Source: Streptococcus oralis subsp. tigurinus
GTDB taxonomy: Bacteria; Bacillota; Bacilli; Lactobacillales; Streptococcaceae
Length of the DNA: 64,000 nt
Direction of reading: 5' to 3'
Assembly: GCF_002356415.1 (NCBI RefSeq)
Contig: NZ_AP018338.1
Coordinates: 1,364,001-1,428,000 of the forward strand
Made by a program: the position numbers and the translations under genes. This document shows, piece after piece, positions 10,509-12,249 of this stretch (positions within the stretch are counted from its first letter, which is position 1; each line of letters opens with the position of its first letter). The notes beneath the pieces are model-generated. The model was not told where the DNA came from, searched no databases, and saw only the letters and a list, made by a program, of their open reading frames with translations.

Positions 10509-10570
10509 CTTACAGTGCTAATAATCGTAACCGAAGATTATACTTGGGTATATCGAGGTAAAGTGACAAC
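10509..10570 (-). repeat. Structured repeat X, copy 1
   Basis: This copy resembles the element at 11690-11747. It shares CTTACAGTGCTA, GTAACCGAAGAT, TATCGAGGTA and GTGAC, and contains a small hairpin (on the minus strand GATATAC-CCAA-GTATAATC). It sits just past the cadD terminator on the minus strand. The function is unknown. Confidence 0.5.
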
Positions 10571-10576
10571 ATAAAA

Positions 10577-10598
10577 AGCCCTCTAAAATTAGAGAGCT
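10577..10598 (-). terminator. Terminator of cadD
   Basis: On the minus strand AGCTCTCT-AATTTT-AGAGGGCT is followed by TTTTTATG, about 40 nt after the cadD stop. Confidence 0.8.
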
Positions 10599-10638
10599 GA
10601 TTTGAACCCGGGCTAAAATCCTAGTGAAACAAAAAAAT

Positions 10639-11250
10639 CTACACGATCAGAAAAGTCTCTATCGTGCCATTTTCATACATGATATATAGTCCAAGTAGAA
10701 TGAATACTATGGGCACAATGATTCGCTCGTATTTTTCAATTGTCTCGAATATTAACGGAATAGAGGATAACATCCGACTAATCTCGCAAAAGATAATTAT
10801 GCCGATTACAAACACAAGCAACGCCACGAGGGTCTGTGACCAATCTAACGAAGCAAAATAAGGTATATAGATACCTAAATTATCTCCGCCAGACGCAATT
10901 GTCAGCAATGTAACTGTCCAAAACAGTTGATTTGCCTTGCTTTGTTCTAATCTTTCAATAATTTCTTCCTCTTCTTCCTCACCTTCTCCAACAATTGCAA
11001 AGCGAATCCCTAAATAGATAGGGATTAAACCAAGCAATCCAACCATCCATTCTTCAGGCACGAAATTAACGACATAAGCAGCAACTAAACTCGCCCCTAC
11101 AAGTAAGCCTGTGCCTAGATATTGCCCCGCATAAATATGCCATTTCTGTTTATTCTGTGATAGCTGTGCAAATAAAATAATTAAAATAATTAAATAATCG
11201 ATACTGGTGGAAATATAAACACCAATAGCAGATAGGATTGTCTGTCCCAT
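10639..11250 (-). CDS. cadD: CadD-family cadmium resistance transporter
   Basis: A 203-residue membrane protein with five or six hydrophobic segments. The sequence ISTSIDYLIILIILFAQ at the N terminus and TIASGGDNLGIYIPYFASL in the second half match the CadD/LysE-like cation exporters of Gram-positive bacteria. An acidic loop (GEGEEEEEEIIERLEQ) separates the two halves. No ArsR-type cadX/cadC regulator gene is adjacent. Instead a 24-codon Cys-rich upstream ORF ends 29 nt before the start. Direct repeats bracket the gene, which suggests it is a cassette. Ribosome-binding site AGGAGG. Confidence 0.87.
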   Translation of the reverse strand: MGQTILSAIGVYISTSIDYLIILIILFAQLSQNKQKWHIYAGQYLGTGLLVGASLVAAYVVNFVPEEWMVGLLGLIPIYLGIRFAIVGEGEEEEEEIIERLEQSKANQLFWTVTLLTIASGGDNLGIYIPYFASLDWSQTLVALLVFVIGIIIFCEISRMLSSIPLIFETIEKYERIIVPIVFILLGLYIMYENGTIETFLIV

Positions 11251-11256
11251 AAAAAC

Positions 11257-11296
11257 CTCCTGTATTAGTCAGTAATAAATCAGCAGATTTTAGGAG
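11257..11296 (-). promoter_or_regulatory. Possible translational attenuator of cadD
   Basis: On the minus strand CTCCT (11292-11296, within the Ser-Pro codons of the upstream ORF) is complementary to AGGAG (11257-11261), the core of the cadD ribosome-binding site. A small AAATC-TGCT-GATTT hairpin lies between them. A ribosome stalled late in the upstream ORF would cover CTCCT and release the cadD site. The pairing is only 5-6 bp and was assessed by eye. Confidence 0.5.
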
Positions 11297-11354
11297 AGCA
11301 CAGACACATTAATTTAGCTATCGCTAGTGGGTAATGTCGAACGTAGGAAAGCAT
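11280..11354 (-). CDS. Cys-rich 24-residue leader peptide upstream of cadD
   Basis: This short ORF starts at an ATG preceded by GAGGAGGAG at good spacing and encodes 24 residues starting MLSYVRHYP and ending KLMCLCSPKIC. Three of the last eight residues are Cys. It ends 29 nt before cadD. The strong ribosome-binding site, the position and the clustering of Cys at the end suggest a regulatory leader peptide rather than a functional protein. No homologue is known to me. Confidence 0.6.
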   Translation of the reverse strand: MLSYVRHYPLAIAKLMCLCSPKIC

Positions 11355-11418
11355 TTTACTCCTCCTCAAAACGTAGTTACAAAGTAATTTCTAACTGGAA
11401 TTCGGTGACTACTTCCAT

Positions 11419-11444
11419 GTAAAGTATAACATACTATACTTTAC
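11419..11444 (-). promoter_or_regulatory. Palindrome and probable cadD promoter
   Basis: GTAAAGTATA and TATACTTTAC form a perfect 10-bp inverted repeat with a 6-nt spacer. On the minus strand it includes a TATACT -10 box, with a weak TTTACG/TTACGA -35 at 17-18 nt. The dyad could be the operator of a metal-responsive repressor encoded elsewhere. Confidence 0.55.
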
Positions 11445-11480: not shown

Positions 11481-11511
11481 CAGTTACTCGGCTTGAAAAG
11501 CCGAGTAACTG
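11481..11511. repeat. Perfect inverted repeat upstream of cadD
   Basis: CAGTTACTCGGCTT and AAGCCGAGTAACTG form a 14-bp perfect stem with a 3-nt loop. No T-run follows on either strand, so it is not a standard terminator. Confidence 0.6.
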
Positions 11512-11594
11512 CGCACCTTCATGGTGTCATTAGCTGATACCATTTGAGGTTTTTGTAGTCTCCAAAATTGTGACCGATAAAACCTCAATAAAAA

Positions 11595-11616
11595 AGCCCT
11601 CTGATAACAGAGAGCT
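11595..11616 (-). terminator. Terminator in the rpsO-cadD interval (1)
   Basis: On the minus strand AGCTCTCT-GTTATC-AGAGGGCT is followed by TTTTTTATTG. It is nearly identical to the cadD terminator. With about 40 bases of adjoining sequence (containing CCTAGTGAAACAAAAAA) it forms a direct repeat around cadD. Confidence 0.75.
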
Positions 11617-11653
11617 GATTTGAACTAGAGCCAGAATCCTAGTGAAACAAAAA

Positions 11654-11671
11654 ATCTCCCCAAAGGGAGAT
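11654..11671 (-). terminator. Terminator in the rpsO-cadD interval (2)
   Basis: On the minus strand ATCTCCC-TTTG-GGGAGAT is followed by TTTTTG. It lies just downstream of structured repeat X copy 2. Confidence 0.75.
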
Positions 11672-11689
11672 GATTTGGTTTATTTTACC

Positions 11690-11747
11690 TTACAGTGCTA
11701 GAAACCGTAACCGAAGATAATACTTTAGTATATCGAGGTAGGGTGAC
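11690..11747 (-). repeat. Structured repeat X, copy 2
   Basis: Closely related to 10509-10570. The central hairpin on the minus strand is GATATAC-TAAA-GTATTATC. It lies between two terminators, so any minus-strand transcript of it would be short and discrete. It may be a small RNA or a relic. Confidence 0.5.
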
Positions 11748-11758
11748 AAAAGTAAAAA

Positions 11759-11781
11759 AGCTCTCTGAATATCAGAGAGCT
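11759..11781 (-). terminator. Terminator of rpsO
   Basis: AGCTCTCTG pairs with CAGAGAGCT (9 bp, 5-nt loop) and is followed by TTTTTTAC on the minus strand, about 110 nt after the rpsO stop. Confidence 0.8.
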
Positions 11782-11889: not shown

Positions 11890-12159
11890 TTAGCGACGAA
11901 GTCCAAGAGAGTTGATTAACTCACGGTAACGGTTAACGTCGTTTTTACGCAAGTATGCAAGCAAGTTACGACGGCGACCGATTTTCTTCATCAATCCACG
12001 GTAAGTAGCGTGGTCTTTTTTGTGTTGTTTGATGTGTTCGTTAAGATGGTTGATTTCCCAAGTAAGGACAGCAACTTGAACCTCTACTGAACCTGTATCA
12101 CCTTCGTGACGTGCATATTGTGCGATGATTTCATTTTTTTTCTCTTTTGAGATTGCCAT
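11890..12159 (-). CDS. rpsO: 30S ribosomal protein S15
   Basis: An 89-residue, full-length S15, binding 16S rRNA in the platform of the small subunit. The family blocks [31 protein letters not shown] and [13 protein letters not shown] are intact. The gene is monocistronic with a consensus promoter and a long leader that can fold around GCAGG/CCTGC. S15 often autoregulates through its leader, but I cannot show that here. Confidence 0.97.
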
Positions 12160-12249
12160 GATGTTTCTCCTTTTTATTTGGCTTCATCCGAGTGGCAGGT
12201 TGGCATGCCTGCAACCAAGAAGAAGTTATTTGTCTTTCCGACAGTTCTT

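Follow-up and report, generated by a model that had tools for sequence, protein, structure and literature searches.

The cadD locus of Streptococcus oralis subsp. tigurinus raises the question of what controls the gene when no ArsR-type gene adjoins it. We analysed a window of 64,000 nucleotides (contig NZ_AP018338.1, positions 1,364,001 to 1,428,000; all coordinates below are positions within the window), in which cadD occupies 11250-10639 on the minus strand. Its 203-residue product is a CadD-family cadmium transporter that matches PF03596 with an E value of 4e-93 and TIGR00779 over its cut-off, and the closest named CadD records are from S. oralis, a Streptococcus, S. pseudopneumoniae and S. 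mitis. A preliminary description of this DNA had reported that an ArsR-type regulator is missing here and had proposed that a short ORF rich in Cys codons replaces it. The absence was confirmed by a PF01022 (ArsR) profile search of the whole genome, which gave four matches, three of them over the cut-off and none in the window. We found that the Cys-containing leader is real and conserved. Locus comparison and folding models indicate that it is probably translated and probably gates cadD translation, by way of an attenuator anatomy that is predicted from the models, and analogy makes metal sensing by the nascent peptide an attractive possibility. The earlier interpretation as a whole is partly supported.

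Organization of the cadD locus

Read along the minus strand, the locus runs from an oriT-like site with a promoter through the leader SD, the leader ORF and a 29-nt spacer to cadD and a terminator-like hairpin (10598-10577, from a pattern scan only). The leader SD GAGGAGGAG (11367-11359) precedes an ORF of 24 codons and a TGA stop (MLSYVRHYPLAIAKLMCLCSPKIC, 11354-11280), which starts with ATG at 11354-11352 and stops at 11282-11280. Between this stop and the cadD ATG at 11250 lie 29 nt (11279-11251), which include the cadD SD AGGAGG (11261-11256). The sequence thus bears out the ORF with a strong SD that had been placed 29 nt before cadD.

The three Cys codons said to lie among the last eight were found at codons 17 (TGT, 11306-11304), 19 (TGC, 11300-11298) and 24 (TGC, 11285-11283), a stretch spanning 11306-11283. 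Such an arrangement is rare, as at least three Cys in the last eight codons were seen in only 2 of the 895 ATG ORFs of 12-60 codons in the window and, of the ten short window ORFs preceded by an SD, in this leader alone. A known Rfam leader over the ORF region was ruled out, since covariance models over 11250-11420 gave no match up to E 1. Weak Rfam matches were obtained elsewhere. One is a ribosomal S15 leader match upstream of rpsO (12103-12219, minus strand), which scored 33.7 against a curated cut-off of 39.5 bits. Another, to PyrR, came from one of two copies of a repeat that flanks the cassette; imperfect intergenic pieces of 82-86% identity lie on either side (10509-10636 and 11591-11764) with their pieces in opposite order.

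The leader accompanies one class of cadD

A CadD relative was present in 179 of the 284 genomes of the genus. Sixty-five streptococcal loci, one per genome and 89-100% identical by tblastn, form a close class; among the matches listed, the remaining CadD rows were at most 53% identical. The leader lies directly upstream of cadD in 64 of these 65 loci, and its DNA, searched as a 170-nt query, had matches in 65 of the 284 genomes, the identical 65 that carry close-class cadD. In the exceptional genome (G233, loci L061 and L114) an element of about 47 kb breaks cadD near its start, after about codon 9, and so separates the leader from most of the gene, which lies beyond the far end of the element. 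No leader was seen by eye in 15 more distant streptococcal CadD loci (L066-L080). Since rpsO lies inside the examined stretch in 57 of the 65 streptococcal loci, most loci share one chromosomal place. A second short leader match in genome G156 was set aside; by eye, it falls inside a long unrelated frame on the opposite strand and looks like chance.

Leader DNA was found in 28 of 395 genomes drawn from the order, 22 of them from the genus and six others. The named non-streptococcal loci include Enterococcus, Lactobacillus gallinarum and Marinilactibacillus contigs, some of which are the six genomes just mentioned, and the leader-carrying hosts comprise streptococci, enterococci, Lactococcus, lactobacilli and Marinilactibacillus. 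Plasmid records also match the leader query, seven over at least 80% of its length and two over about 80%. Eight records matching leader DNA, of 1298 plasmid records with a CadD relative, supplied the plasmid loci, with match H9 left out.

For the comparisons below, 111 loci were merged into 78 distinct stretches (64 streptococcal and 14 other), the other 33 loci being repeats. This set includes L140, which a first motif had missed. It omits L061, where the inserted element displaces the region upstream of cadD, L114, where the leader stands without a full cadD beside it, and L135, whose cadD fell below an 85% identity filter. By eye, the leaders of L114 and L135 are intact. In L135, from an Enterococcus faecium plasmid (2723-3343), the N-terminal part of the annotated CadD is foreign sequence.

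We also inspected fetched loci whose CadD is 61-64% identical. By eye, most of them have, in the place taken by the leader here, an ArsR/CadC-like frame just before cadD, which makes the suggestion that the leader replaces such a regulator a reasonable one. In seven loci (L095-L100 and L102) these frames read MCVC by eye, which may be compared with MCLC in the leader. The idea prompted by this likeness, that the leader is a decayed CadC fragment, was dropped.

The leader is probably under coding constraint

The 24-codon ORF is intact in all 78 distinct loci. Its 23 distinct sequences hold 14 synonymous and 10 amino-acid-changing codon variants, and a share of 14/24 exceeds the expected synonymous share of 0.24-0.30 with a P of 0.0003-0.004, a value that is only indicative because the variant types are not strictly independent events. 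The one variant of the stop codon, in L017, keeps a stop. In an alignment of 63 distinct regions the leader SD is conserved and no gap falls within the ORF; gaps occur before the ORF, in the spacer and in a T run. Near-identity of the loci by itself proves little because divergence is small, cadD dS being about 0.015-0.12 in usable pairs (L139 and L145, whose codon comparisons were out of frame, were excluded). With the ORF intact in 78/78 loci and a synonymous excess, chance is an improbable origin for it. These comparisons suggest that the leader is probably a conserved, translated peptide.

Conservation of the Cys codons, which the preliminary description had named as a check, held for Cys17 and Cys19 in 78/78 distinct loci and for Cys24 in 74/78, with Tyr in the other four. 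The invariance of Cys17 and Cys19 is not telling alone because 18 of the 24 leader residues never change, and Cys24 does vary.

The predicted promoter lies inside a MobV-type oriT

Upstream of the leader, a promoter scan, similarity to DNA upstream of a MobV relaxase gene and a pMV158-like layout together point to a MobV-type oriT with a predicted promoter inside it (11454-11419, minus strand). Its inverted repeats are ACTTTAC-GAA-GTAAAGT and GTAAAGTATA-N6-TATACTTTAC, and the overlapping inverted repeats with nick-proximal TTATACT that are characteristic of MobV oriT sites are present in the window. The nick is predicted between 11430 and 11429. The predicted promoter consists of a -35 TTTACG (11452-11447) and an extended -10 TATG-T-TATACT (11433-11423). 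If transcription begins at the same distance from the nick as at the pMV158 Pmob1 start (PMC8264293), the start would be at 11416. Of the 78 stretches, 71 contain the oriT core motif as defined for this search, 72 the first inverted repeat and 77 the -10 TATACT. We had considered the promoter palindrome as a repressor operator; the plasmid matches and the pMV158 papers displaced this in favour of a MobV oriT.

A 220-nt query that included the promoter matched in part in 645 plasmid records. Beyond the nine with the leader, the records among the matches listed align with the first 75 nt of the query only. On the E. faecalis plasmid p2 the oriT part matches just upstream of a MobV relaxase gene, and a Lactobacillus intestinalis plasmid carries oriT, leader, cadD and mobV in this order, with mobV spanning the record ends. 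According to two reports, three inverted repeats overlap one another in the oriT of pMV158, where ACTTTA recurs, and Pmob1 has a -10 TATAcT beside the nick and is repressed by MobM (PMC5863519, PMC8264293). The site described here is alike in its overlapping inverted repeats, its repeated ACTTTA and its extended -10 TATACT by the nick. It differs in that it precedes the leader and cadD, in a genome without a Mob_Pre match. That profile likewise gave no match in the named control genomes and found MobV in both of two plasmid records.

The placement of the promoter within a MobV-type oriT makes a mobilizable plasmid the probable source of the cassette, as judged from these similarities, and a resident MobV relaxase could in principle bind the oriT that overlaps the predicted cadD promoter. 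Several further features of the upstream region were recorded. A hairpin-rich sequence upstream of oriT (11481-11511) is partly common to the Enterococcus and Marinilactibacillus loci and matches five plasmid records over 40-48% of the query. The L. amylovorus plasmid locus (L142) has neither the oriT core nor the TATACT -10 upstream of the leader, and in L. paracasei (L141) the unit TTATACTTTACTTGG stands threefold upstream of the leader. The sole phage record that matches the oriT-promoter part is Streptococcus phage PhiSdyV1524-fexAoptrA (H41; 11313-11381, 87% over 69 nt).

The leader 3' end is predicted to mask the cadD SD

Both the minimum-energy fold and the 63-sequence consensus gave a hairpin that begins at leader codon 17 and extends into the first codons of cadD. 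One strand of this predicted hairpin (11306-11239) is formed by codons 17-24 and the stop, the other by the cadD SD and cadD codons 2-4. It pairs UGUCUGU:ACAGACA and AAAAUCU-G-CUG:CAG-G-AGGUUUU, with small differences in the part between these two helices; the arms of interest are the first of these helices and AAAAUCUGCUG:CAGGAGGUUUU. In the model the cadD SD itself pairs with leader codons 23-24 and the stop (11287-11282), with one mismatched G, and not with the Ser-Pro codons.

The preliminary description had assigned the masking to CTCCT, and this sequence is indeed present in codons 20-21 (TCT CCT, 11296-11292) and complementary to AGGAG. However, the pairing probability in the predicted ensemble of the hairpin region is at most 0.0001 per pair. 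Forcing the helix changed the energy from -43.4 to -37.3 kcal/mol over the whole region and from -22.1 to -16.0 kcal/mol for the hairpin, and this helix was rejected as the SD mask, being disfavoured by about 6 kcal/mol. The idea that the leader masks the SD and that a ribosome opens it is retained in the model, with codons 17-24 and the stop, not CTCCT, as the masking segment.

The local hairpin has a z score of -2.84, with 3 of 200 shuffles as good; over all 186 nt of the leader the fold does not stand out, 21 of 200 shuffles being as good. When both coding parts were recoded synonymously, the cadD SD was cheaper to open in 488 of 500 sequences. When leader codons alone were recoded 11 of 300 sequences were as masked, and 53 of 300 when cadD codons alone were recoded. 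Among the 43 window frames with an ATG and an SD, cadD ranks first in opening cost, at 10.32 kcal/mol; the next frame has 8.85 and the median is 2.99. None of the 47 pairs of the consensus hairpin is altered on both sides, and column shuffling matched the observed pair measures in 490-500 of 500 cases, which gives no sign of covariation in this alignment. The leader's own SD is partly paired in the model, and with an opening cost of 5.6-6.35 kcal/mol leader translation may therefore be modest.

A ribosome late in the leader is predicted to open the SD

We modelled the ribosome as an unpairable footprint, tried four footprint edges and took P+14 as the main one. At this edge the cost of opening the cadD SD is 8.7 kcal/mol without a ribosome and falls to 5.2 with Cys17 and 3.7 with Cys19 in the A site. 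It falls further with later positions in the A site, to 1.9 at codon 20, 1.2 at codons 23-24 and 1.0 kcal/mol at the stop. Edges shorter than P+14 gave the same order of opening by position. Because the P+17 edge, 3 nt longer, gives 4.6 for Cys17, 1.8 for Cys19 and 1.9 kcal/mol for the stop, the preference for late positions depends on the assumed footprint.

The mean over 63 variants at P+14 followed the same course, from 7.96 kcal/mol without a ribosome through 4.16 at Cys17, 3.35 at Cys19, 2.39 at codon 20 and 2.27 at codon 24 to 1.60 at the stop. Scatter among the variants is wide: costs span 3.7-10.8 kcal/mol when no ribosome is present and reach 7.11 when the A site is at codon 24. Stalling at Cys codons, which had been put forward as the event that opens the cadD site, does give a graded opening at Cys17 and Cys19, but at P+14 the stop opens the site more. 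By footprint arithmetic, a ribosome at the stop would reach about 11271 and a 30S subunit on cadD about 11270; the two could therefore just fit together. The modelled leader design favours a ribosome late in the leader. This is a better fit for coupling, or for an arrest that requires Cys17 and Cys19 to be part of the chain beforehand, than for a ribosome waiting for Cys-tRNA.

Proposed gating of cadD and its trigger

Locus comparison and the folding model together make it fairly probable, in our judgement, that the leader and its hairpin gate cadD translation through the anatomy of attenuation or coupling, whatever the signal. The transcript of this mobile cadD cassette would start, probably, at the promoter inside the MobV oriT and would carry a translated 24-codon leader and a hairpin over the cadD SD, whose 5' arm would come from the leader itself, namely from its 3' end with codons 17-24 and the stop. 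With no ribosome on this arm, cadD initiation would be hindered; a ribosome reaching or pausing at the last leader codons would melt the arm and free the cadD SD. If a ribosome on the last codons frees the SD in this way, cadD translation would depend on leader translation. Leader translation, a regulated pause and a metal- or thiol-related signal are all three inferred. Plain coupling, a nascent-chain sensor and Cys-codon starvation are versions of the trigger that overlap with gating, and our estimate for gating concerns the anatomy.

Plain translational coupling is a serious possibility, though short of an even chance. The leader would then just deliver SD-opening ribosomes, with no metal or amino-acid signal, and control, if any, would lie at the promoter. 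A ribosome that translates the leader normally finishes at the very position at which the model opens the SD, and in pMV158 a MobM-type relaxase is reported to repress Pmob1 (PMC5863519). Coupling, however, leaves both the Cys cluster, found in one of ten SD-preceded short ORFs of the window, and the constraint on the peptide sequence unexplained.

A nascent-chain metal sensor, modelled on known copper systems, is rather unlikely on our present estimate. Cd2+ (or Zn2+) would bind polymerised Cys17-x-Cys19 near the peptidyl transferase centre and hold the ribosome at codons 20-25, which would melt the hairpin and turn the exporter on. The 24-codon leader might then do the job of CadC or CadX on a plasmid-derived MobV cassette, a role we put forward with the same reserve.

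The trigger in the preliminary description was starvation at Cys codons, in which cadmium drains cysteine or thiols, ribosomes wait at the Cys codons and the cadD SD opens. This account gains from the position of all three Cys codons in the SD-masking arm, from the opening, partial as it is, when the A site holds Cys17 or Cys19 (5.2 and 3.7 against 8.7 kcal/mol at P+14; 4.6 and 1.8 at P+17) and from the Cys-rich upstream ORFs known in mycobacteria (PMC4633059). Against it, Tyr replaces the best-placed residue, Cys24, in 4 of the 78 distinct loci, and a ribosome held at Cys17 or Cys19 leaves the SD less open than one at a late position, both at three of the four edges and on the 63-variant mean. 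Both the model and the locus comparison point to starvation as the weaker trigger, and we consider it distinctly unlikely.

Transcription attenuation, with the inner hairpin (codons 22-24 with the SD) and the T run as a terminator that leader ribosomes would prevent, seems very improbable. The inner stem has -8.3 kcal/mol and a T run of 4-8 precedes cadD in the alignment, but the inner hairpin is absent from the terminator scan output, its loop is long and the T run lies partly in the stem and is broken by C or G in some loci. Coincidence, in which the ORF and hairpin are chance features of a conserved promoter region in a recently spread cassette, is just as hard to credit: low divergence, which leaves the stretch nearly identical in any case, and absent covariation would agree with it, but the synonymous excess, the stop-for-stop change in L017, an ORF without gaps and SD masking beyond most recodings (12 of 500 as masked) argue against it.

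If the leader that gates cadD also senses metal, it would be a very small ribosome-acting metal sensor in Gram-positive bacteria, would extend the copper precedents CruR and CutF to a toxic cytosolic metal and would explain how the cadD class of 65/284 streptococcal genomes works without an adjacent repressor. Even if the trigger is plain coupling, a testable leader is now defined on a mobile resistance cassette. The MobV-type oriT is of interest in its own right, as the promoter that overlaps it in these genomes probably drives a metal-resistance gene.

Comparison with known systems

The erm and cat attenuators have a short leader ORF whose 3' part is one arm of a hairpin masking the SD of the next gene, and their trigger is an antibiotic that stalls the ribosome. 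The leader described here would resemble them, its 3' end being an arm of the predicted hairpin over the next SD. It differs in that the antibiotic stall there is known, while a pause in the leader is a proposal.

In mycobacteria, Cys-rich upstream ORFs have been reported (PMC4633059). The likeness lies in a short ORF with a C-terminal Cys cluster before a gene that it possibly controls; the mycobacterial example precedes cysteine-metabolism genes, whereas the leader here precedes a cadmium exporter. Among streptococci, the repressor CadX controls the CadD transporter of the S. suis cadDX system, as summarized in PMC11430099. CadX is a DNA-binding repressor, and none adjoins cadD here. Cd is reported to have raised the cadD transcript of S. 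pneumoniae D39 about 3.6-fold, an increase not seen on addition of Mn (PMC4366526). The main text of a study of pneumococcal small ORFs (PMC9426450) does not mention cadD, cadmium or cysteine. No earlier report of the leader came to light in the part of the open literature on cadmium, cadD, leader peptides, Cys codons and pneumococcal small ORFs that was consulted.

The closest parallel in principle is with CruR (DUF2946) of Bordetella pertussis and CutF of Rhodobacter capsulatus. Two reports describe both as nascent proteins whose Cys motifs sense copper and whose stalling governs the gene that follows (PMC9973294, PMC9426467). For CutF, a stem-loop is described that shields the downstream SD (PMC9426467, PMC9973294). 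The leader shares with them an upstream ORF, a Cys motif in the nascent product and a position before a metal gene. As described there, CruR and CutF carry CXXC or CxxxC together with an arrest motif at the C terminus, either RAPP or proline-rich; copper is their signal, and CutF is exported. The leader has 24 residues, Cys-x-Cys and one Pro near its end. Neither a CXXC or CxxxC motif nor a RAPP or proline-rich arrest motif is present in the leader, which offers CLC and SPKIC only. By analogy, it is possible that the nascent Cys-x-Cys of the leader senses Cd as CruR and CutF sense copper.
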